Below are positions 13,333-23,973 of a DNA stretch of 64,000 nt, one piece after another (the first letter of the stretch is position 1; the number at the start of each line of letters is the position of its first letter). The DNA is taken from contig NZ_RDQE01000006.1 in NCBI RefSeq assembly GCF_003697845.1, positions 124,001 through 188,000 of the forward strand. Direction: 5' to 3'. The notes under the pieces were generated by a model, which saw only the letters and a list, made by a program, of their open reading frames with translations, was not told where the DNA came from and made no database searches. Both the position numbers and the translations under genes were made by a program. Origin of the DNA: Halobellus captivus (GTDB lineage: Archaea > Halobacteriota > Halobacteria > Halobacteriales > Haloferacaceae).

Positions 13333-14943
13333 CTACAGCCCCTCCTCGCCTCCCTCCTGGGAGAGGATGACGACCATCGAGAGTCCGGAGATGACGAGCA
13401 GGATGAGGGTCGGAACGACCGCGTACTGGTAGAGCGCGGTCTCCTGAGCGCGCCAGATCTGGGTGACGATGGTCTCGAAGCCCGACGGGCGGAGGATGAG
13501 CGTGACCGGGAGCTCCTTCATCGTGGTGAGGAAGACGAGGGCCGCGCCGGCGACGATCCCCGAACGGGTGAGCGGGAACGTCACCCGACGGAACGCGCCC
13601 AGCGAGGACTCCCCGAGGGTGCGGCCCGCCTCGACCAGCCGGGGATCCACGCCGAGGATCGACGTCCGGGTCGATCCGACGGCCTGCGGCAGGAACCTGA
13701 CGACGTACGCGAACACCAGAAGCGGGAGCGTCTGGTAGAGCCACGGCAGGTATCCCGATCCGAAGTAGACCAACGCGAGCGCCAACACGATCCCCGGGAC
13801 GGCGAAGCCGACGTACGTCGCCCGCTCGAAGAGCGTCGCGAGCGGCGAGTCGTGCGTGGCCGCGAAGTAGGCGACGGGCAGCGCAGCGAGTGCAGCGACG
13901 ACCGCGGCCGCCAACGAGACCGAAAGCGAGTTCAGCACCTGAACCGGCTCGAACGCCATCGACGGACGACGGCCGGCGTCGGAGCGCACGAGCCAGAGGA
14001 ACAGGATCCACAGCGGGACGAGGAGCGCGGTCGCCGCGACCGAGGCGGGAGCCAGCGTCGCCGGCCACCGCCATCGGCCGAGGCGGACGAGGTCGTCGGT
14101 GGTGCCCGCGTCGTCGCCGTGGACGCTCCGGTTCGACCGGACGAGCCACTCCAGCGCGAGCACGACGAGCACGACGCCGAGGAGCTGTATGGAGAGCAGC
14201 GCCGCGTAGTCGCGGCCGAACGCGTTGTACTCGACGTAGATCTGTCGGGTGAACACGGGCAGGCGCATGATCGAGGGCGTGCCGAAGTCGGAGACCGCGT
14301 ACAGCGCCGCCAGGAGCGACCCGGCGGCGACGGCCGGGCGGATCACGGGCAGCGTCACCCGGCGGAACGCCTCGGCGCGACCGTGGTTCAGCGTTCGGGC
14401 CGCCTCGATGAGCGTCGTGTCGAACGAGAGCAGCGCGGCACGCGTCGAGAGGTAGACGTACGGGTACGTGTACAGCGTGATCACGAGGATCGAGCCGGGA
14501 AGTCCGTAGATCTCCGGGATCCGCTCGATGCCGAGCGGCGCGAGGAGGTCGTGGAACTCCCCGCGAGGACCGAACGCGGAGACGAACGCGAACGCGCCGA
14601 CGTAACTGGGAACGACGAGCGGGAGCGCGACGACGATCGACCAGAACCGGCGGAACGGGAGGTCGGTCCGAACCGTCAGGTACGCGAGCGGGACGCCGAG
14701 GAGGATCGAGAGGCCCGTGACGCCCGCCATCAGGAGCAGGCTGTTGAGAAGCACCTCGACCGTCCCGCGGCTGAAGAGGAGTTCGCGCGCACGAGCGGGT
14801 TCCACGGTGACGGCCTCGATCACGAGCCACGCCAGCGGGAACACGAGCGTCGCGGCGATCGCCGCGGACAAAAGCGTCAGTCCCGGCGGCAGCCGCCCGT
14901 CGCCGTCGGTCGCGCGGTCGATGATGCGCTGTATCCTGCTCAT
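13333..14943 (-). CDS. Fe(III)-type ABC transporter permease (duplicated, fused)
   Basis: 536-aa integral membrane protein made of two homologous permease halves, as in FbpB/SfuB/ThiP-type importers. Each half has the cytoplasmic EAA loop that contacts the ATPase: EAARTLNHGRAEAFRRVTLP near 180 and EAGRTLGESSLGAFRRVTFP near 435. About twelve membrane helices are visible. The matching binding protein is encoded 5 kb away (20352-21503), and no ATPase gene is in the window. The upstream spacer has a degenerate operator half (TTAGGAATTCC, 14993-15003) about 50 nt before the start and a full operator 108 nt away (15051-15066). Confidence 0.9.
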   Translation of the reverse strand: MSRIQRIIDRATDGDGRLPPGLTLLSAAIAATLVFPLAWLVIEAVTVEPARARELLFSRGTVEVLLNSLLLMAGVTGLSILLGVPLAYLTVRTDLPFRRFWSIVVALPLVVPSYVGAFAFVSAFGPRGEFHDLLAPLGIERIPEIYGLPGSILVITLYTYPYVYLSTRAALLSFDTTLIEAARTLNHGRAEAFRRVTLPVIRPAVAAGSLLAALYAVSDFGTPSIMRLPVFTRQIYVEYNAFGRDYAALLSIQLLGVVLVVLALEWLVRSNRSVHGDDAGTTDDLVRLGRWRWPATLAPASVAATALLVPLWILFLWLVRSDAGRRPSMAFEPVQVLNSLSVSLAAAVVAALAALPVAYFAATHDSPLATLFERATYVGFAVPGIVLALALVYFGSGYLPWLYQTLPLLVFAYVVRFLPQAVGSTRTSILGVDPRLVEAGRTLGESSLGAFRRVTFPLTRSGIVAGAALVFLTTMKELPVTLILRPSGFETIVTQIWRAQETALYQYAVVPTLILLVISGLSMVVILSQEGGEEGL

Positions 14944-15042
14944 GGGTCGGAAACGAAACCGGGTTCGATCCGGATGGAAGGTGCTGTCCCGGTTAGGAAT
15001 TCCGATCCCGGCGGCATCGAGTGTGCGATCGACTCCGACGGG

Positions 15043-15066
15043 TATAAGTTTTTAGGGAAGCCTAAA
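15043..15066 (+). promoter_or_regulatory. TATA box and DtxR-type operator 1
   Basis: TATAAG (15043-15048) is followed directly by TTTAGGGAAGCCTAAA (15051-15066). The operator covers -23 to -8 relative to the ATG at 15074, so a bound repressor would sit between TATA and the start of a leaderless transcript. The arms TTTAGG/CCTAAA match the bacterial DtxR/IdeR consensus core (TTAGG-N4-CCTAA). Confidence 0.8.
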
Positions 15067-15073
15067 TCACGAC

Positions 15074-15646
15074 ATGGAGCTGACGAGACGTGACGCCGTG
15101 GCCGCGCTGGCCGCCGTCGGGGCGACCGGCGGGGTCGCCGTCGGCGTCCGTCGCATGCAGGACCGGGAGGGCGGGGAGGACGCCGCGACGGACGGCGCGT
15201 CGGCCGGAGATCCGTCGGATCGGGACACGAACGAGGGGACGGTCCGGGCGACGATGGTCGCGGTCGCGGAAGTCGTCTACCCTGGGGAGGTCGACGGGAT
15301 CGACGAGTTCGTCGACCGCTTCCTCGACGGCCGGCTCGACGGGTCCGCGCACGCGAGCGGGCTCCGCGAGGCGGTCGGCGAGCTCGCCGACGCCTCGCAA
15401 GCGTGGCACGACGCGCCGGTCGAGGAGCTCCCCGCGGCCGAACGCGAGGAGCTGCTCCGCGGGATCGGAGCCGACACCGCCGACGAGGACCCCGACGGAA
15501 CGACCGCCGAGCGGGTGCGGTACTACGTCGTGAACGACCTGCTTCTCGCGCTGTACGCCTCGCCGACGGGCGGGGAGCTGGTCGGGATCGAGAACCCACA
15601 GGGACACCCCGGCGGCGCGGAGAGCTACCAGCGGGGGCCGCCGTGA
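15074..15646 (+). CDS. Tat-exported small subunit, gluconate 2-dehydrogenase subunit 3-like
   Basis: 190-aa protein with a twin-arginine signal at the N terminus (TRRDAVAALAAVGATGGVAVG), so it is probably exported folded. The mature part (VYPGEVDGIDEFVDRFLDGRL...) matches the small subunit (subunit 3) that accompanies membrane-bound GMC dehydrogenases. In bacterial relatives this subunit carries the Tat signal for the flavoprotein. It is directly downstream of operator 1, and its stop overlaps the GTG of the dehydrogenase gene (GTGA). Confidence 0.8.
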   Translation: MELTRRDAVAALAAVGATGGVAVGVRRMQDREGGEDAATDGASAGDPSDRDTNEGTVRATMVAVAEVVYPGEVDGIDEFVDRFLDGRLDGSAHASGLREAVGELADASQAWHDAPVEELPAAEREELLRGIGADTADEDPDGTTAERVRYYVVNDLLLALYASPTGGELVGIENPQGHPGGAESYQRGPP

Positions 15647-17292
15647 GCGGCGCGGAAAGCGTCGGAGACGGCCGATCGGGCGGCGACGGTACCACCGGTG
15701 ACGACGTCGATCGTACCCCCGTCCCGAACGCGGACGTCTGTGTCGTCGGCGCGGGCCCGGCGGGCGCGCTCGTCGCCGACCGGCTGGCCGCCGACCGTGA
15801 GGTGGTGGTCCTCGACGCCGGACCGCGGTTCGATCCCGACGACCGCCTCGCCAGACGGGAGCGGGCGATCCGCCCGGCGTACGACCGCCCGGACGTCTGG
15901 GACGTGGGCGGCGAGCGCGACGCCCACGAGAACGCCGGCGAGTGGTTCTATCCGCTGAACCACGCCCGCGTGAAGGGGATCGGGGGCTCGACGCTCCACT
16001 GGCAGGGGATGGTGATGCGGCTCCACGAGGACGACTTCAACTCCGGGACGGTCCGGGGCGTCGGCCCCGACTGGCCGATCGACTACGCGGACCTGCGTCC
16101 CTACTACGCCGAGGCGGAACGGGAGCTGGGCGTCGCGGGCGGGAGCGGCGTCGACAATCCCCATGCGCCGCCCCGTGAGGAGCCGCATCCGATGCCCGCC
16201 TTCGAGCCCTCCTACAGCGACTCGCTCTTCGCCGAGGCGTGCGAGGAGCTCGGGATCGACATCCACTCGGTGCCGAACGCGCGCAACTCCGAGCCGTACG
16301 ACGACCGGTCGCCCTGCGTCGGCTACGGCACCTGCCAGCCGGTGTGTCCGAGTGGCGCGAAGTACGACGCGACCGTCCACGTCGATCGGGCCGAGGCGGC
16401 GGGCGCGACCGTGATCGACCGCGCCCCGGTCCAGTACCTCGACCACGACGCCGACCGCGTGACCGCCGCAGTCTACGCGACGCCCGACGGGGGGGAACAC
16501 AGACAGGAGGCCGATGCCTTCGTCGTCGCCGCGGGCGGCGTCGAGACGCCGCGGCTCCTCCTGCTCTCGGAGTCCGAGGCGTATCCCGACGGGCTCGCGA
16601 ACTCCAGCGGGGCGGTCGGACGGTTCTTCATGGACCATCTGTTCGCGGGCGCGGGCGGCACCCTCGACGAGCCGACCCGCCAGAACCACGTCGGCTTCTA
16701 CACCAGCGCCTGCGACGAGTTCTACGACGACGCCGACGAGGAGCGGGCCCCGTTCAAGCTCGAGTTCTTCAACTACGCCGGCCCCTCGCCGGTCGAGATG
16801 GCGCTGTCGGGCGACGACTGGGGCGATCCGCTCCTGGAGCGGCTACGGGACGGGTACGGGAACCACGTGGCGATGGGCGGGCTCGTCGAGCAGCTCCCGC
16901 GGGCCGACAGCCGGATCACCCTCGACGACGACCGCGTCGACGACCGCGGCAACCCCGTGCCGCGGATCGAGTGGACCGTCGACGACCGCGCGCTCTCGAC
17001 GATCGAGCGGGCGAACGAGGTCCAGGTGGCGATCCTCGAGGAGCTCGGCGCGGAGGTCGAGTGGGTCGCCGGTCCCGACGCGACCGGTCCCGCCTACCAC
17101 CACATGGGGACGACGCGGATGAGCGACGACCCCGCCGAGGGCGTGGTCGACCCGGACTGTCGGACCCACGACCTGGAGAACTGTTGGATCGCCTCCAGCT
17201 CCGTCTTTCCCACCAGCGGCGCGATGAACCCGACCCTCACCATCGCCGCGCTCGCGCTGCGCGTCGGCGACGGCGTCGACGCGTGGCTCTGA
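15643..17292 (+). CDS. GMC-family FAD dehydrogenase with Fe-S cysteine motif
   Basis: 549-aa flavoprotein. It has an FAD-binding GAGPAG near residue 32, a GMC middle domain, and the C-terminal GMC signature with the catalytic His in YHHMGTTRMS and the Asn in SGAMNPTLT. A CVGYGTCQPVC segment (Cys-x5-Cys-x3-Cys, about residue 226) matches the [3Fe-4S]-binding region described for FAD-dependent glucose and fructose dehydrogenases. It probably oxidises a sugar or alcohol. It has no signal of its own and likely leaves the cell with the Tat-bearing small subunit encoded just upstream. No cytochrome c subunit gene follows, so the electron acceptor is unknown. Confidence 0.88.
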   Translation: MSGAESVGDGRSGGDGTTGDDVDRTPVPNADVCVVGAGPAGALVADRLAADREVVVLDAGPRFDPDDRLARRERAIRPAYDRPDVWDVGGERDAHENAGEWFYPLNHARVKGIGGSTLHWQGMVMRLHEDDFNSGTVRGVGPDWPIDYADLRPYYAEAERELGVAGGSGVDNPHAPPREEPHPMPAFEPSYSDSLFAEACEELGIDIHSVPNARNSEPYDDRSPCVGYGTCQPVCPSGAKYDATVHVDRAEAAGATVIDRAPVQYLDHDADRVTAAVYATPDGGEHRQEADAFVVAAGGVETPRLLLLSESEAYPDGLANSSGAVGRFFMDHLFAGAGGTLDEPTRQNHVGFYTSACDEFYDDADEERAPFKLEFFNYAGPSPVEMALSGDDWGDPLLERLRDGYGNHVAMGGLVEQLPRADSRITLDDDRVDDRGNPVPRIEWTVDDRALSTIERANEVQVAILEELGAEVEWVAGPDATGPAYHHMGTTRMSDDPAEGVVDPDCRTHDLENCWIASSSVFPTSGAMNPTLTIAALALRVGDGVDAWL

Positions 17293-17299
17293 ACCTCGT

Positions 17300-17315
17300 T
17301 TTAGGTAAACCTAAA
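17300..17315 (+). promoter_or_regulatory. DtxR-type operator 2
   Basis: TTTAGGTAAACCTAAA, with an extra T:A pair on each side. It lies 34-49 nt upstream of the glycosyltransferase ATG and directly abuts or overlaps the only AT-rich candidate for its TATA box. It starts 8 nt after the GMC gene stop. Confidence 0.8.
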
Positions 17316-17348: not shown

Positions 17349-18161
17349 ATGAGCGAGTCAGTACACGAGACGAACGGAATCGCGGCGGCCGTCGACGGCG
17401 GCGACGACGCGACGGATCACGCCGACACTATCGACGCCGACGCGGAGGAGGCCACGATCGACGCCGGATCCGCGGAGCCGTACACCTTCGACGACCTCAG
17501 CGTCGTGATGGGTACGTACAACGAGGAGGAGGCGATCGGAACGGTGCTCGAGGACGTCGACCGGGTGACCGACGGAAGAGCCGAGGTCGTCTGCGTCGAC
17601 GGGTCGTCCGACCGAACTCCGGAGATAGCCCGCGAACACGGCGCACGCGTGATCGAACAGGAGCCGCAGGGATACGGCGTCGCGGTCCGCGAGGCGATCC
17701 TCTCGCCCGACCGCCCGGTGGTCGTCACGACCGACTGCGACGACACATACCCGATGGACGCGTTGCCCGAGTTCCTCGCCGGGATCAACGACGGCGCGGA
17801 CGTGGTGAGCGGCGACCGCCTCTACCACGGCGCGAAGGCGATGCCGGCGTTCAACCGCCTCGGCAACCACGCGTTCGCGGCGCTCGCGAGCCTGCTCATG
17901 GCAGAGCGCGTCCACGACACCACCACCGGGATGCGCGCGTACCGCCGCGAGGTCGTCGAGGAGATCGGATGGACCGAGAACACCGGACTCTCGGCCGAAC
18001 TCCTGATCCGGCCGCTGATGCGCGGCTACGACGTGCGAGAGCGCCCGATCGCCTACGCCGAGCGGCTGGGCGAGACGAAACTCGACCCGATCGGCGGCGG
18101 CGCGGCCATCGCGAAGTCGATCGTCACCGTCTGTCTCGAGGAGCAACTGCGGCGGCTCTAG
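17349..18161 (+). CDS. Family 2 glycosyltransferase (DPM synthase-like)
   Basis: 270-aa cytoplasmic GT-A fold enzyme. After an acidic, probably disordered N terminus (1-55), the fold begins with LSVVMGTYNEEEAIGTVLEDV. A DGSSDRT motif and a TDCDDTYP stretch are the metal/nucleotide-sugar-binding acidic motifs. No transmembrane tail is present. Related enzymes transfer a sugar to dolichyl phosphate, which would feed the membrane-embedded transferase at 18197-20338; that link is inferred. The ATG at 17349 is the only good start and follows operator 2. Confidence 0.85.
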   Translation: MSESVHETNGIAAAVDGGDDATDHADTIDADAEEATIDAGSAEPYTFDDLSVVMGTYNEEEAIGTVLEDVDRVTDGRAEVVCVDGSSDRTPEIAREHGARVIEQEPQGYGVAVREAILSPDRPVVVTTDCDDTYPMDALPEFLAGINDGADVVSGDRLYHGAKAMPAFNRLGNHAFAALASLLMAERVHDTTTGMRAYRREVVEEIGWTENTGLSAELLIRPLMRGYDVRERPIAYAERLGETKLDPIGGGAAIAKSIVTVCLEEQLRRL

Positions 18162-18196: not shown

Positions 18197-20338
18197 CTAT
18201 TCTCCGTCCGTCTCGGCATCCACCTCGAAGACGACCCACTCCGGATGGGCCTCGGCGTCGTCCGGGAGGTACGTCCCCTCGTTTCCACACTCCGTGACCA
18301 GCGGGCAGACGGAGCGCTCTGGGGGCCACACCGTCTCGACGCGGTCGCCGTCCGTCCGGACCGTCACCTCCTGCCGGTAGGTGAACGTCGACCCCGCGGG
18401 GTCGACGAGCGTCACCGTGAGGACGACGACGTCGTCCCCGTCGCCGACCGGAACCGTCGAGTCCGGGTCGCCGGCCAGCCGCGCCGTGTCGGCGTCGAAG
18501 ACCCAGTCGACCGCGACCGAGTCGCCCGGATCGTCGACGACGTAGCCCGCACGGTCGCCGCCGGCCGCACCCTCGACCTCCAGCCGAACGCGGGCGCGCT
18601 CCACGCGCTCGGGAACGCCGACCGTCGTTCCGGCCGAGAGCGTCGATCCCCGACGGACCTCGATCGGTTCGAGCTTCGGAGAGACGTGCCGGTTCGCGTC
18701 CGGGGTCCACTCTCCCCGATAGGCGTACCGGTAGGCGGTCCGGTTCGGGTACGCGTCGAGCACGGCGAAGTCCTCCCCCGGGTCGCGATCGAGCGCGTAG
18801 ACGACCTCGCCGTCGAAGCCGGGTTCGTTCCGCAGCGCCTGGAACGGGTGGTTCTGCCACTCGCCGTACGGCGTCGGGAGGAAGACGAGCGCGTCGTCGA
18901 ACGACTCCGACTCCACGGGCTCGTAGGCGACCTCGTACTTCTCGGCGTGTTCGGCGTTCCGGTCGAGCGGGGTCGAGACGGCCGTGACCGCCGCGATCCC
19001 CCCGACGAGGAGGGCGGCCGCGACCGCGACGACGACGACCGTTCGCGCGGCTCTCGCGGTCGTGACCGCCTCAAGCCGTCGCCGGAGCCGCGGGAGCGAG
19101 CGCCACCCGGCGACCGCGGCGACCCCGCCGAATATCGAAAACGGAACGAGCAGATCGAAGTGGTAGAACGGGCCGAACCCCGACACCAGTCCGTCAGTTG
19201 GGTCCGAGAACGTCGCGAGCAGGTTGTGCGTTCCCCAGAAGAACAGGTTGCCGACGACGACCGCCAGCGCGACGCCCGCGAGCAGGAGGCCGGCCGTGCG
19301 CTCGAAGTCGCGTTCGCGGTCCCCTCGCTCCGAGCGGCTCCATCGCCGGACCGAAAGCCCCGATCCGCCGAGGGCGAGCAGCGTCCCGAGCGGCCCCGCA
19401 GTGACCCAGCGCGTGGCGAGGAACCACAGCGCGTAGGCGTTCGTTTCGAGCGCGATTCCGGGGGTGTAGTCGGCCGAATGGCCGAGTATCCGCCGCTCGC
19501 CGAAGCCGGGACCGTCCATCGGCGCGAACGCCTGGTACGGGAACGTCAGCGGCGACCCCGTGAGCCGGAGGTTGTACGCGAGCGTGATCCCGACGAACAG
19601 CGTGCCGAGAAGCGCCGTGAGTCCGTGGCGACGGACGGGACCCGGAAGGCGCGGACGACGTCGAAACTCGACCTTCCGCAACGACGACAACACCCCGACG
19701 AGCGCGTGGAGGATGAAGGGGCTCGCGAACAGCACCGCCGTGTAGGGGCGCGCGAAGAACGCGAGCCCGACCGCGACGCCCGCGACGCCGGCCGCCGAAA
19801 GCGACCGATCCCGGACGCCCCGGAGGTACGCGACCGCGAAACACAGGTTGAGGAACGTCGTCGGCGCGTACGGGAGGAACGTCGAGCCGGTCACGAGCGC
19901 GAGCGGCGACGCCGCGAACAGCGCCGCGGCGACGACGCCGACCCGCCGGTCGAACGCCATCGACCCGAGGAGGTAGACGAGGAAGGCGTTGCCGGCGGCG
20001 ACGACCGCGAGCGTGGCCCGCGGCTCGCCGAGGAGCGCCATCGAGACCGCGTACATCGCCGCGGGGACCGGCGTGTACTTCGGGTAGAGCCGGCCGCCGT
20101 CCTGGACGAAGAACCACGGGTGGAAGGCGTCCGCGAGCGCGCCGGCGTGGAGCTCGAGCTGCCCGGAGAGCAACATCGCCGCCTGCGTGAGGTAGACCGC
20201 CTCGTCGTGGTTGCTGGAGTGGTACGCGAAGACGGTCGCGGCGATGGCGAACGTCAGGGCGCCGGCCGCGCCCGCGACGAGCCCGGCCGCGAGCGTCGGG
20301 CGGTCGGGGGCGGACGGGAGGGAACGGTCGGCGGTCAC
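18197..20338 (-). CDS. GT39/PMT-like membrane glycosyltransferase
   Basis: 713-aa protein with about ten membrane helices in the first 450 residues, then a large extracytoplasmic beta-rich domain (about 470-713). The first loop holds HSSNHDEAVYLTQAAML, with the acidic Asp-Glu pair typical of GT-C enzymes that use polyprenyl-phosphate sugars. It could glycosylate lipids or proteins outside the cell. A GTG start lies 13 nt after the stop of the iron-binding lipoprotein gene, so the two are probably one transcript under operator 3. The acceptor is unknown. Confidence 0.75.
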   Translation of the reverse strand: MTADRSLPSAPDRPTLAAGLVAGAAGALTFAIAATVFAYHSSNHDEAVYLTQAAMLLSGQLELHAGALADAFHPWFFVQDGGRLYPKYTPVPAAMYAVSMALLGEPRATLAVVAAGNAFLVYLLGSMAFDRRVGVVAAALFAASPLALVTGSTFLPYAPTTFLNLCFAVAYLRGVRDRSLSAAGVAGVAVGLAFFARPYTAVLFASPFILHALVGVLSSLRKVEFRRRPRLPGPVRRHGLTALLGTLFVGITLAYNLRLTGSPLTFPYQAFAPMDGPGFGERRILGHSADYTPGIALETNAYALWFLATRWVTAGPLGTLLALGGSGLSVRRWSRSERGDRERDFERTAGLLLAGVALAVVVGNLFFWGTHNLLATFSDPTDGLVSGFGPFYHFDLLVPFSIFGGVAAVAGWRSLPRLRRRLEAVTTARAARTVVVVAVAAALLVGGIAAVTAVSTPLDRNAEHAEKYEVAYEPVESESFDDALVFLPTPYGEWQNHPFQALRNEPGFDGEVVYALDRDPGEDFAVLDAYPNRTAYRYAYRGEWTPDANRHVSPKLEPIEVRRGSTLSAGTTVGVPERVERARVRLEVEGAAGGDRAGYVVDDPGDSVAVDWVFDADTARLAGDPDSTVPVGDGDDVVVLTVTLVDPAGSTFTYRQEVTVRTDGDRVETVWPPERSVCPLVTECGNEGTYLPDDAEAHPEWVVFEVDAETDGE

Positions 20339-20351
20339 GGGAGCCGCCCTA

Positions 20352-21503
20352 TCAGACGTCGACGCCCGCGTCGCGCATGAGGTCGATCGTCGGTTCGAGG
20401 TCCGACAGCTGGGCCAGGTCGACGTCCGGCACGTCGAGTTCGTCGATCGTCGGCAGGTCGCCGATGGGCTCGACGTCGGGAACCAGCGGGTACTCGAAGG
20501 TGGTCCGGGCGAAGTAGTCCTGTGCCTCCGCCGACAGCAGGTGCCGGACGAAGTTCTCCGCGAGCGTCGCGTCGGAGGCGGTGTCGACGACGGCCGCGCC
20601 CGCGACGTTGAACACCGCGCCGGCGTCGCCGCTCGTGAACGCGGTGGCGATCGACGCCTCCGGGTTGCCGTCGAGGACGCGCTGGATGTAGTAGTGGTTC
20701 GTGAACGCGGCGTCGATCTCGCCGTCGGCGATCGCCTGGCACGCGGCGAACTCGTCGGGATAGCTCGTGATCCCCGATTCGACGATCGCCTCCAGCCAGT
20801 CGCGGGTCGCTTCCTCGCCCGCGATGAGCCGCATCGCGGTCACGAACGCCTGACAGGAGCCGTAGGAGGGGGCCCAGCCGAGGTCGCCGGAGAACTCCTC
20901 GGGATAGGCCATGACGTCGTCCGGGAGGTCGTCGTCGGAGAACTCGTCGGTGTTGTACGGGACGGTGCGGGCACGGCCCGAGGTCCCGATCCACTGGTCG
21001 GTGCGGAACTCCGCGCGGACCATGTCGGTGACTTCCTCGGAAAGCGACTGCGTGCGTCCCTCGTCGGCGAGCGCGCCGAGCGAGCCCGCGTTGACGGAGT
21101 AGAACACGTCCGCCCGCGACCCGTCGCCCTCGTTGATGATCGTGTTCACGAGGTCGGTCGACCCGCCGTATCGAACCGTCAGGTCGAAATCGTCGTACTG
21201 GTCGTCGATGTAGGAGACGAGGTCGCCGACGAGGAACTCGCCGCGCCCGGAGTAGACGGTGAGTTCGCCGGAGAGGTCGGGCATATCGGCGATCGAGGTG
21301 CCGCCGGGGAGTCCGCGCCCCTCGCGGCCGGAGCCGATCTGGCCGACCGTTGAGTCGGTCGCGTCGCCGTTGCCGTCGCCGCCGTCGTCTCCGATCCCGA
21401 GGATGCCGAGACACCCGGACGTCCCGAGCACGCCGACCGCACCCGTCGTGGCGAGGAGGCGGCGTCTGTCGATCCCGTCCCGAAGACGATCGTGATCCGT
21501 CAT
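20352..21503 (-). CDS. Fe(III)-type ABC transporter substrate-binding lipoprotein
   Basis: 383-aa binding protein of the FbpA/Fut type. The N terminus has a twin-arginine lipoprotein signal (DRRRLLATTGAVGVLGTSGC); the Cys is the lipidation site, so it is a Tat-exported lipid-anchored protein. The mature part starts with an acid-rich linker, then GELTVYSGRGEFLVGDLV, typical of ferric-ion-binding proteins. TNHYYIQRVL has the tandem tyrosines used to hold Fe(III) in this family. The ATG at 21503 is preferred over one at 21518, which falls inside operator 3. It is the likely partner of the permease at 13333-14943. Confidence 0.9.
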   Translation of the reverse strand: MTDHDRLRDGIDRRRLLATTGAVGVLGTSGCLGILGIGDDGGDGNGDATDSTVGQIGSGREGRGLPGGTSIADMPDLSGELTVYSGRGEFLVGDLVSYIDDQYDDFDLTVRYGGSTDLVNTIINEGDGSRADVFYSVNAGSLGALADEGRTQSLSEEVTDMVRAEFRTDQWIGTSGRARTVPYNTDEFSDDDLPDDVMAYPEEFSGDLGWAPSYGSCQAFVTAMRLIAGEEATRDWLEAIVESGITSYPDEFAACQAIADGEIDAAFTNHYYIQRVLDGNPEASIATAFTSGDAGAVFNVAGAAVVDTASDATLAENFVRHLLSAEAQDYFARTTFEYPLVPDVEPIGDLPTIDELDVPDVDLAQLSDLEPTIDLMRDAGVDV

Positions 21504-21507
21504 ATGT

Positions 21508-21523
21508 TTTAGGCCCACCTAAA
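21508..21523 (-). promoter_or_regulatory. DtxR-type operator 3
   Basis: Reads TTTAGGCCCACCTAAA on the plus strand. It ends 4 nt before the binding-lipoprotein ATG (minus strand), covering -20 to -5. A weak TATA (ACTAAG on the minus strand) lies just upstream, around 21526-21531. Confidence 0.8.
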
Positions 21524-21542: not shown

Positions 21543-22724
21543 TCAGTCGTCGGCGACCGCCGGCGTCCGGTCGAGCGCCTCGAGACAGTCGAGCCAGTCG
21601 CGCATGTACTCGCCGACGTGGACGAAGAACTCGCCGTTCCGGTACTCCTCGAACTCGCCGTCGGCGAGCCGGTCGGTCATCGCGTCGTAGGCCGCGGCGT
21701 AGCCGTCGGCGTCCGCGCCGGCGTCGCGGATCAGCTCCCAGAGGTGCTCGTTGAGCTCGAGTCCGGCGACCTCGTTGTGGAGGTCGTCGAACGTCGAGCG
21801 CGCGGCCTTGTTGTGTTCACACAGCGGGCCGCCGTTGTAGATCCGCTTGCCGAGCACGTCGCAGGCGCGCTTGAGGAAGACGCCCGACCAGATGTCGTCG
21901 AACCGGCCGACTTCCCACTCGTTGTCGTCCATCGGCAGCTGGTAGAACGCCGGGATCACCTCGCGGCGGAACGCGAGGTTCATCGAACAGACGGTGAGGT
22001 AGTTGTCGCGGGCGGCGACGAAGTCCTCGCCGAAGTCGTCGGCGGTCGTTCGCGTCCGTGCTTGGCCCTGCAGGTCGCCGTCCATCAGGATCCGGACGGC
22101 GTCGAGGTCGGGGACGTTCGTCCACAGCCCTTGTGAGGCGACGACCTCGCCGGAGTCGATCGCGACCGTGTCCGTCTCGACGGTCTCGTCCATCGCCGAG
22201 TAGGGGTACCCGCGGGGGTACAGACCGTGCTCGTCGGCACGCTCGTAGAGGACGTTCACCCAGTTCTCGTCCGACCGGACGCGCGTTATCTCCCCCTCGA
22301 AGGCGAGGTTCTCCATGTGTCGGCCGAAGTAGTCCGCGTCGTCGTGCGGGAGCGTGTCGTCGTCGATGAACATCCCGTACTCGAACTCGGGGTTCGCCCA
22401 CATGTACAGCAGGCCGAAGCTCGTCTCCGCGTGGCTCGCGGCCGGAACGACGTGGCCGTACTCGGCGACCCTCTCGCTCTCGTACCACTCCTCGCGGGCG
22501 GTCCCGTCGAAGACCTCGCCGGAGACGCCGAGATCCGCGAGCATCTCTCGCATCTCCGCGACGTCACAGAAGTCCTCGGTGACGAGCACGAAGTGGAGCC
22601 GCGAGACGTCGAAGCCGTGGTCGCGGGCGTTCCCGACGTACGCGCGGATACACTCGTACTCGCGGATCGTCGGAACGACCACGCAGACGTCTCCTCTCCC
22701 CTCCGGTGAGCGGCGTTCGTCCAT
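21543..22724 (-). CDS. Reversibly glycosylated polypeptide-like glycosyltransferase
   Basis: 393-aa protein resembling the RGP / alpha-1,4-glucan-protein synthase superfamily. Plant members of this family interconvert UDP-arabinose forms or self-glycosylate. N-terminal VCVVVPTIREYECIRAYV is a GT-A-like start and MFIDDDTLPHDDADYF has the acidic DDD motif for the metal-nucleotide. No signal or membrane helix is seen. Operator 4 lies 11 nt before its ATG. In this cluster it probably acts on a nucleotide sugar used by the other transferases; the exact reaction is not predictable. Confidence 0.75.
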   Translation of the reverse strand: MDERRSPEGRGDVCVVVPTIREYECIRAYVGNARDHGFDVSRLHFVLVTEDFCDVAEMREMLADLGVSGEVFDGTAREEWYESERVAEYGHVVPAASHAETSFGLLYMWANPEFEYGMFIDDDTLPHDDADYFGRHMENLAFEGEITRVRSDENWVNVLYERADEHGLYPRGYPYSAMDETVETDTVAIDSGEVVASQGLWTNVPDLDAVRILMDGDLQGQARTRTTADDFGEDFVAARDNYLTVCSMNLAFRREVIPAFYQLPMDDNEWEVGRFDDIWSGVFLKRACDVLGKRIYNGGPLCEHNKAARSTFDDLHNEVAGLELNEHLWELIRDAGADADGYAAAYDAMTDRLADGEFEEYRNGEFFVHVGEYMRDWLDCLEALDRTPAVADD

Positions 22725-22735
22725 GCGATCCAGTT

Positions 22736-22751
22736 TTTAGGCTGGCCTAAA
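22736..22751 (-). promoter_or_regulatory. DtxR-type operator 4
   Basis: TTTAGGCTGGCCTAAA, within a longer 9-bp-arm palindrome (22733-22754). It covers -27 to -12 of the RGP-like gene. The stop codon of the upstream flippase-like gene (22747-22749) lies inside the operator. Confidence 0.8.
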
Positions 22752-23943
22752 AACCTGGCGGTCCGGCGGCCGAGGGGTCGCCCTCGGCGGCCGGCTCGGC
22801 CCCGTCGGCGGTCGGCTCCGCGGTCGCGGGCGCGTCGGTCCCCTCGGCCTCGCCGGCTCCGGCCGTCGGAGAGACGTTGAACGCCAGTCCGGCCACCCCG
22901 CCGCCGCCGAGCGTGACCGCGTTCTTCAGCGCGTGGTCGAGGACCGCCGCGGCCAGGGCGATCTCGGCCGGGATCGGAGCGGCGGCGACGACGATCCCCG
23001 TGAACGCCGCCTCGTACAGGCCGACGCCCCCCTGTGAGAGCGGCAGGACCTTCGCGAGGTTCCCGGCCGAGACCGCGAGCGTCCCGACGACGACGAGCGT
23101 CACCGGGGCGAGACCGCCGGTCCCGCCGACCAGCGCCGCGAGCACGAGGACGGCCGTCAGGACGTCGAGCCCCCACACGGCCCCGCTCGCGAGGAGGACT
23201 CGGAGGAGCGCGCCCGGGTCCGCGGCGACGACCCGAACCGCGGCCCCGAACCGGACGACGGCGTCGACAACCCGCGAGAGTCGCGGCCGATCGAGGCGGT
23301 CGACTTGGTCACGGAGGCCGGGACCGAACCGGCGGTCGCTCCGGGCGACCGCGACCGTGACGGCCGAAGCCAGCGCGGCCGCGGCCGCGATCCCGGCGGC
23401 GGCGGCGACGGCTCGACCCGGTCCGACGGCCGCGGCGGTTTCACCGGCGTCCGCCGACAGCACGGTTCGCCCGTCGAGGAGGAGCGCCGCGAGCGCGGTG
23501 CCGCCGAGCACGCCGAGCGCCACGAGGTCGAACGCGCGCTCGACGGCCAGCGACGCGACGCCGGTCGGATACGGCACGTCCCGCCGGTCCTTCAGGAGAT
23601 ACGCGCGAACGCCGTCGCCGGCCCGCGCGGGGACGATCAGGTTCGCGGTCTGGCTGGCGAACACCGTCGCCGTGAGAAACGCCGACCCACACCGATGGCC
23701 CATCGGGGCGAGCACGTCGCGGTACCGTCGCCCGCGAACCGGCCACGACAGCAGGTAGGCGACGAGCGCCGCGACGAGCAGCGACGGGTCCGCCGCGGCG
23801 ACCGTCGAGACGACGGTCCCGGCGTCGAGGGTCCGCGTCAACACGACGCCGCCGACCGCGAGGACGAGGACGGTTCCCACGGCCGTGAGCCATCCTCGCG
23901 GGAGGCGGTCGCGGCGCCGTGAGTCGCCGTCGTGCGTGGTCAT
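22747..23943 (-). CDS. Flippase-like membrane protein (LPG synthase TM / UPF0104 family)
   Basis: 398-aa protein with about eight hydrophobic helices, of the lysylphosphatidylglycerol-synthase transmembrane-region family (AglD-type flippase-like). Typical elements are RWRRYRDVLAPMGH-like (here RGRRYRDVLAPMGHRC), NLIVPARAGDGVRAYLLKDR near residue 100 and KVLPLSQGGVGLYEAAFTGI near 300. Haloarchaeal relatives lie beside glycosyltransferases and are thought to move lipid-linked sugars. The C-terminal 45 residues are a disordered A/E/P/G-rich tail. Its promoter carries operator 5, and its stop lies inside operator 4. Confidence 0.82.
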   Translation of the reverse strand: MTTHDGDSRRRDRLPRGWLTAVGTVLVLAVGGVVLTRTLDAGTVVSTVAAADPSLLVAALVAYLLSWPVRGRRYRDVLAPMGHRCGSAFLTATVFASQTANLIVPARAGDGVRAYLLKDRRDVPYPTGVASLAVERAFDLVALGVLGGTALAALLLDGRTVLSADAGETAAAVGPGRAVAAAAGIAAAAALASAVTVAVARSDRRFGPGLRDQVDRLDRPRLSRVVDAVVRFGAAVRVVAADPGALLRVLLASGAVWGLDVLTAVLVLAALVGGTGGLAPVTLVVVGTLAVSAGNLAKVLPLSQGGVGLYEAAFTGIVVAAAPIPAEIALAAAVLDHALKNAVTLGGGGVAGLAFNVSPTAGAGEAEGTDAPATAEPTADGAEPAAEGDPSAAGPPGF

Positions 23944-23950
23944 ACGATCG

Positions 23951-23973
23951 TTTAGGTTGGCCTAAACAATATA
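23951..23973 (-). promoter_or_regulatory. DtxR-type operator 5 with TATA box
   Basis: TTTAGGTTGGCCTAAA (23951-23966) covers -23 to -8 of the flippase-like gene. The minus-strand TATA (CTATATTG, 23967-23974) abuts it. The same AT-rich block could serve a plus-strand promoter for the gene at 24005. Confidence 0.8.

Follow-up and report, generated by a model that had tools for sequence, protein, structure and literature searches.

A candidate surface sugar dehydrogenase behind an iron-type operator in Halobellus captivus and its co-occurrence with glycan enzymes

Results

The locus and its neighbourhood

We analysed a stretch of 64,000 nt from Halobellus captivus (assembly GCF_003697845.1, genome size 3.59 Mb; contig NZ_RDQE01000006.1, positions 124,001-188,000), called the window in the following. 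Its relevant features are listed below in window coordinates.

13333-14943, minus strand: fused permease, FbpB-like and presumably for Fe(III), transcribed divergently from the operon (BPD_transp_1 twice)
15043-15048, plus strand: TATA box TATAAG of the operon (from the sequence)
15052-15065, plus strand: iron-type DtxR-family operator, exact TTAGG-N4-CCTAA, TTAGGGAAGCCTAA (pattern match, conserved in place)
15074-15646, plus strand: Gluconate_2-dh3 (gamma-like) subunit, 190 aa, Tat signal MELTRRDAVAALAAVG (PF13618, RR motif)
15643-17292, plus strand: GMC FAD-dependent dehydrogenase, catalytic subunit, 549 aa (GMC_oxred_N, GMC_oxred_C)
15997-15999, plus strand: codon of H119, which aligns with His105 of B. 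cepacia GDH (FAD-linking)
16315-16347, plus strand: codon stretch of C225 (from 16315), C231 (from 16333) and C235 (from 16345), presumed 3Fe-4S ligands (alignment to C212/C218/C222; 101/101)
17301-17314, plus strand: exact box, operator upstream of the dolichyl-phosphate hexosyltransferase gene
17349-18161, plus strand: dolichyl-phosphate hexose transferase, module member and phyletic partner (NF041391, 406 bits, cut-off 375)
18197-20338, minus strand: PMT_2-type glycosyltransferase with DUF7846, module member, directly 3' of FbpA
20352-21503, minus strand: FbpA-like ferric-iron-binding lipoprotein (SBP_bac families; Tat signal and lipobox by eye)
21509-21522, minus strand: exact box, operator upstream of the FbpA and PMT_2 genes
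21543-22724, minus strand: RGP-like glycosyltransferase / sugar mutase family, module member and phyletic partner (PF03214, 64 bits, cut-off 23.8)
22737-22750, minus strand: exact box, operator upstream of the RGP-like gene
22747-23943, minus strand: flippase-like UPF0104 / LPG_synthase_TM membrane protein (TIGR00374, PF03706)
23952-23965, minus strand: exact box, operator upstream of the flippase-like gene

Reading along the operon promoter, the TATAAG starting at 15043 is followed by the box and then by the subunit's ATG at 15074. The GMC gene overlaps the subunit stop by GTGA, and its GTG start at 15643 was picked for this overlap. A weak second box (TTAGGAATTCCGAT, 14993-15006, two mismatches) is located about 50 bases before the start of the FbpB-like permease, which has no exact box of its own besides the shared one.

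For the transporter genes no NCBIfam model reached its cut-off, such that FbpA and FbpB are named from their best solved relatives, i.e., ferric iron-binding proteins (7.6e-58) and an iron ABC transporter permease (5.6e-82), respectively. Among 80 named loci, the operon's neighbours include the dolichyl-phosphate hexosyltransferase (78/80), FbpB (76/80), the PMT_2-type enzyme (66/80), FbpA and the RGP-like protein (62/80 each) and the flippase-like protein (50/80), all of these counts being lowered by contig ends. The PMT_2-type transferase gives two separate matches within one open frame in several genomes (e.g., G013, G071, G095), which looks insert-like.

The GMC flavoprotein

The GMC protein matches B. 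cepacia GDH with 8.2e-88 in an alignment over 519 residues of the Halobellus protein; Gluconobacter FDH is also near. In B. cepacia GDH, Cys212, Cys218 and Cys222 hold a 3Fe-4S cluster, FAD is bound to His105, and Cys213 joins the alpha and gamma subunits (PMC6719666). The initial annotation had likened the Cys-x5-Cys-x3-Cys segment to that of 3Fe-4S sugar dehydrogenases, and the alignment bears this out: C225, C231 and C235 fall on C212, C218 and C222, and are invariant in 101/101 sequences, as are H119, H486 and N529. From this we infer a 3Fe-4S cluster in the GMC protein. The predicted structure shows pLDDT below 50 at residues 223-239, i.e., it is unreliable in the cysteine region. The position of Cys213 is held by Val in 93/101 sequences.

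In a fold search with the GMC model, each of the nine best PDB matches is either FDH or B. cepacia GDH. His486 and Asn529 sit at catalytic positions and correspond to His1147 and Asn1190 of FDH, both of which are altered in solved variants. A sugar dehydrogenase activity would agree with the closest solved relatives. At the position of Asn1146 in FDH we observe Tyr485, which is Tyr in 85/101 sequences (Phe 12, Asn 2, Ala 2), such that a substrate other than fructose or glucose is possible; fructose probably is not the substrate. Five GMC matches are found in genome G073, and three of these are adjacent to one another on contig C11.

Small subunit, export and electron acceptor

The subunit encoded upstream matches PF13618 with 31.8 bits (cut-off 23.4) and is the only such match in the genome; the same family is found in the partner proteins of 44/45 relatives. 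We recovered 98 partner genes from 101 loci (three loci gave none). An RR in the first 15 residues is present in 97/98 of them, a lipobox-like Cys in some, and 72/98 encode no cysteine at all, which is expected if the Cys213-type bond between alpha and gamma is gone. A fold search with the small subunit gave no credible match, and none to the solved gamma subunit (6a2u chain A) among the matches listed. By eye, no signal is seen on the catalytic subunit itself. Together with the Tat-signal partner, this resembles the hitchhiker arrangement described for B. cepacia (PMC6719666).

The initial annotation had also noted that the usual cytochrome subunit is absent, and we find the same: Cytochrome_CBB3 has no match in the whole genome (7/14 control genomes do match), and a CXXCH motif between 3.5 kb before and 5 kb after the GMC start occurs in only 3/80 loci, within frames that look non-coding by eye. 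A heme-c subunit encoded elsewhere was considered and rejected given the lack of a genomic Cytochrome_CBB3 match, this being the one cytochrome model searched. The complex hence appears to be a heme-less variant rather than a full member of the FAD-GDH/FDH/gluconate dehydrogenase complexes. Since the genome also holds ten Copper-bind domain matches, a halocyanin-type copper protein is a plausible electron acceptor.

Conservation of the operator box

That the operon promoter carries an operator, as first annotated, holds well beyond Halobellus. The box is exact in 77/80 named relatives, has one mismatch in two, and in one the contig is too short. These 80 are the best 80 of 199 relatives, such that the set leans to close ones, the nearest named relatives of the enzyme being Halorubrum. 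In an own-family set, which covers 20 of 24 further genera of the family with the enzyme, the box is exact in 17/20 genera and has one mismatch in three. A set of 20 other-family genomes, drawn from 19 of 29 further genera, has the exact box in 17/20 and no exact box in three (L140, L145, L152). The two extra sets combined give 34/40 genomes with an exact box (39 genera). The relative sets partly overlap, with at least two contigs in common (L118 = L095; L149 is on the same contig as L108). Genome G240 has the enzyme and no exact box upstream.

The centre four bases vary (37 kinds among 94 exact boxes), and shuffled sequences gave 0 exact boxes in 1000 shuffles. A background of 950-base windows was dropped: 143/1240 of these hold exact boxes, since neighbouring cluster genes have boxes of their own. 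Among the 94 relatives with an exact box, 76 have a TATA within 25 bases upstream of it, and the start codon usually follows 7-11 bases downstream. In four of the 20 other-family genomes (L139, L142, L147, L148) the box begins some 15-30 bases ahead of the GMC match, with no small subunit in between, i.e., the box follows the enzyme. That it serves solely the divergent FbpB is ruled out by 18/18 loci without a divergent FbpB which keep the exact box. We thus read the box as the operon's own.

Genome-wide occurrence and regulon content

The exact pattern TTAGG-N4-CCTAA has 11 sites in the 3.59 Mb genome compared to one for the backwards-read control pattern; over 18 genomes, 5-23 exact boxes each are found vs. 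0-2 for the control. When one mismatch is allowed, the count of 16 shows no excess over the control (27), such that only the exact box is informative and only exact boxes were counted. All 11 are located at iron-transport genes, a DtxR-family gene or the enzyme cluster. Five of them lie in the window (operon, dolichyl-phosphate hexosyltransferase, FbpA, RGP-like and flippase-like gene).

Outside the window, locus L001 has an exact box immediately upstream of an FbpC-like ATPase gene. In L002, an exact box about 180 bases upstream precedes a weak Pyr_redox_2-like gene (25.1 bits, cut-off 26.1), and downstream of this gene come a FecCD-type permease and its ATPase; two further exact boxes stand before a binding protein, whose gene run contains another binding protein as well as a flavin-oxidoreductase gene. 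In L003, exact boxes flank both sides of a gene with the iron-dependent repressor domain PF01325 (42.8 bits), its sole domain above cut-off, which suggests autoregulation. The regulon includes genes that are nearest to Fe(III)-hydroxamate/dicitrate-type ABC models, all below the curated cut-offs. The operon thus shows traits of a DtxR-family regulon: its palindromic box is conserved in position between TATA and start codon, and iron uptake genes as well as a DtxR-family gene carry this box too. The regulon's content marks the box as that of a metal regulon and suggests iron as the metal.

Further observations concern the surroundings of these boxes. L002 (8133-9176, 13867-14646, 14685-15749) holds two flavin-oxidoreductase-like genes, one below and one above the Pyr_redox_2 cut-off, with boxed Fe-transport genes around them and an adjoining DUF7551/DUF7552 protein; they might be siderophore or ferric reductases. 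In L003 (7858-8409 and 9085-9519), a gene that looks Dps/ferritin-like by eye is found near the DtxR-family regulator gene, and a one-mismatch box (L007 3538-3551) is located 25 bases upstream of a gene for a 418-aa protein that looks FAD-type by eye.

Co-occurrence with the glycan enzymes

We assessed co-occurrence in one common set of 194 genomes of class Halobacteria, using E thresholds of 1e-100 (RGP-like), 1e-40 (PMT_2), 1e-70 (dolichyl-phosphate transferase), 1e-100 (enzyme) and 1e-110 (permease). At these thresholds the RGP-like, PMT_2 and dolichyl-phosphate transferase genes are each present in 154/194 genomes, and the three sets are identical. The GMC enzyme is found in 152/194, of which 151 are in common with the module set, and 39 genomes have neither. 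One genome has the enzyme without the module (G212), and G066, G246 and G266 have the module without an enzyme above threshold. A Fisher test gives 3e-36, an overstated value since the test ignores the relatedness of the genomes. Within genera of mixed members (g1, g11, g39, g42, g47, g50, g65), the four genes are absent together.

The presumed Fe(III) permease is distributed more broadly. It is present in 185/194 genomes, i.e., in all 152 with the enzyme and in 33/42 without it (some of the latter may be paralogues), while the three glycan enzymes occur in only 3/42 enzyme-less genomes. That is, the enzyme goes with the glycan module and not with Fe(III) import as such. The link also holds without physical linkage: in G028 the RGP-like and FbpB genes are on a different contig from the enzyme, which keeps its box.

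Discussion

Proposed function

Our best explanation, to which we give a probability of roughly 0.6, is a surface sugar dehydrogenase that is repressed by iron and acts with the co-inherited glycan module. The operon's product would be an exported gamma-alpha dehydrogenase, i.e., a GMC flavoprotein that holds FAD and a 3Fe-4S cluster and that the Tat pathway carries out via its Gluconate_2-dh3 partner. A metal-loaded DtxR-family repressor bound at the box, which stands between TATA and start codon, would block transcription; with iron short, the repressor would leave the box and the enzyme would be made. Outside the cell, the enzyme would most likely oxidise an alcohol group of a sugar, probably of the one handled by the glycan module (dolichyl-phosphate hexosyltransferase, RGP-like, flippase-like and PMT-type proteins). 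Electrons would exit via the cluster towards a non-heme acceptor, a halocyanin-type protein being a plausible one. The glycan module may make something that aids Fe(III) capture and may in this way benefit the iron supply. Fe-S proteins whose expression rises under iron starvation have a precedent in E. coli FhuF.

How such a benefit might arise can be put more specifically, if only as a speculative proposal: the product could be a surface-bound sugar ligand for iron, i.e., a cell-anchored, non-diffusible counterpart of a siderophore. A hexose would be loaded on the dolichyl carrier, flipped and attached outside to a lipid, the S-layer or the Fe-binding lipoprotein FbpA itself. The exported 3Fe-4S flavoenzyme would then oxidise it, and the resulting keto or acid sugar would hold Fe(III) for the FbpABC-like importer. 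Iron-limited P. putida exports gluconate, which adds little to iron dissolution (PMC4767421). This warns against simple chelation by free gluconate, a surface-bound ligand being a different case.

Alternative explanations

The enzyme might instead serve as a respiratory bypass with no role in iron capture, i.e., when iron-rich respiratory complexes are reduced, external sugar would be oxidised by a cheap enzyme of three Fe that feeds copper halocyanins or quinone. Under iron starvation, complex I subunits and cytochrome proteins decrease in Hfx. volcanii (PMC11349517), and P. putida secretes 44 percent of its glucose as gluconate when iron-limited compared to 2 percent when replete (PMC4767421); the Copper-bind matches would fit as well. 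Such a bypass leaves unexplained both the near all-or-none link with three glycosyltransferases and the locus shared with FbpA and FbpB. We consider it unlikely, yet a stronger rival than the following one.

The initial annotation had proposed a ferric reductase or a sugar oxidase. Its underlying observation is confirmed and its interpretation partly supported: the closest solved structures favour the sugar oxidase, while the tie of the enzyme to the glycan module speaks against the reductase. As a ferric reductase, the exported enzyme would pass sugar electrons to extracellular Fe(III) and provide Fe(II) for uptake. The iron-type box before the operon would suit this function, as would the permease's presence in every enzyme genome. 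Given that no heme-c domain of the model tested is found, other acceptors may have access to the cluster, which in the B. cepacia relative is at the surface (PMC6719666). On the other hand, the linked FbpAB-type transporter is a ferric one, and most enzyme-less genomes keep the permease while few have the glycan enzymes. The known mode of FbpAB-type transporters needs no reduction outside the cell. Furthermore, another flavin-oxidoreductase gene (L002 13867-14646) belongs to the regulon, within a boxed gene run. A ferric reductase thus explains the co-inheritance worse than the surface sugar dehydrogenase and is less likely; we regard it as improbable.

DtxR-family proteins sense Fe or Mn, and the regulator has only PF01325 above cut-off, while FbpB shares its intergenic region with the operon in the window; that the box, though real, responds to another metal (e.g., manganese) or mainly serves the divergent permease is nevertheless very improbable, given a regulon of Fe(III)-hydroxamate/dicitrate-type ABC-like genes (below curated cut-offs) with ferric-type FbpA and FbpB, and given that loci without a divergent permease keep the box.

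Relation to known systems

The gamma-alpha FAD-GDH of B. cepacia (PDB 6a2u) shares with our system the GMC subunit, the three 3Fe-4S cysteines, the FAD-linking histidine and the small subunit with Tat signal. In contrast, the Halobellus system is archaeal, stands behind an iron-type box, has no multiheme-c subunit and mostly lacks the cysteines of the alpha-gamma bond on both sides. Gluconobacter FDH (PDB 7w2j, 8jej) is alike in fold (TM 0.81), cysteine spacing and His1147 (H486), and differs in Asn1146 (Tyr485 here), in its cytochrome subunit and in lacking the iron-type box. Gluconate 2-dehydrogenase has three subunits and shares the partner family Gluconate_2-dh3. It is a c-type cytochrome complex (PMC6472588), while the Halobellus genome has no cytochrome c subunit for the one model tested. 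The haloarchaeal DtxR-family (FerR / Idr / SirR) iron regulon likewise has a palindromic box at iron transport and DtxR-family genes; here the box also covers a flavoenzyme and glycan enzymes.

The protein families and the box type are already known. Leyn and Rodionov (2015) reportedly studied the haloarchaeal DtxR-family regulon by comparative genomics, and the genes of the operon may already be listed there. Our literature search, with the key regulon study outside its reach, found no paper on the operon and no expression data on the GMC gene. Nor did we find in the literature searched the heme-less archaeal variant behind an iron-type box with its near all-or-none glycan tie; a prior description is possible. 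In iron-starved Hfx. volcanii, HVO_1859 (UPF0104) and HVO_0655 (GalE family) increase, with values of +11.6 and +12.7, respectively (PMC11349517). By name they fall into families of the cluster, and we do not count them as orthologues of its genes. The main text of that study has a single passage with 'dehydrogenase', which names no GMC enzyme (PMC11349517). Our Haloferax volcanii control genome has a Gluconate_2-dh3 match.

Implications

Across class Halobacteria, an Fe-S flavoenzyme and three sugar-transfer enzymes are tied to an iron-type box, in many genomes along with a ferric importer. The joint presence and absence of the enzyme and the glycan genes offers a direct genetic test. If the surface sugar dehydrogenase is true, its heme-less form must have another acceptor, perhaps a copper-based one, and iron starvation would remodel the surface sugars of haloarchaea.
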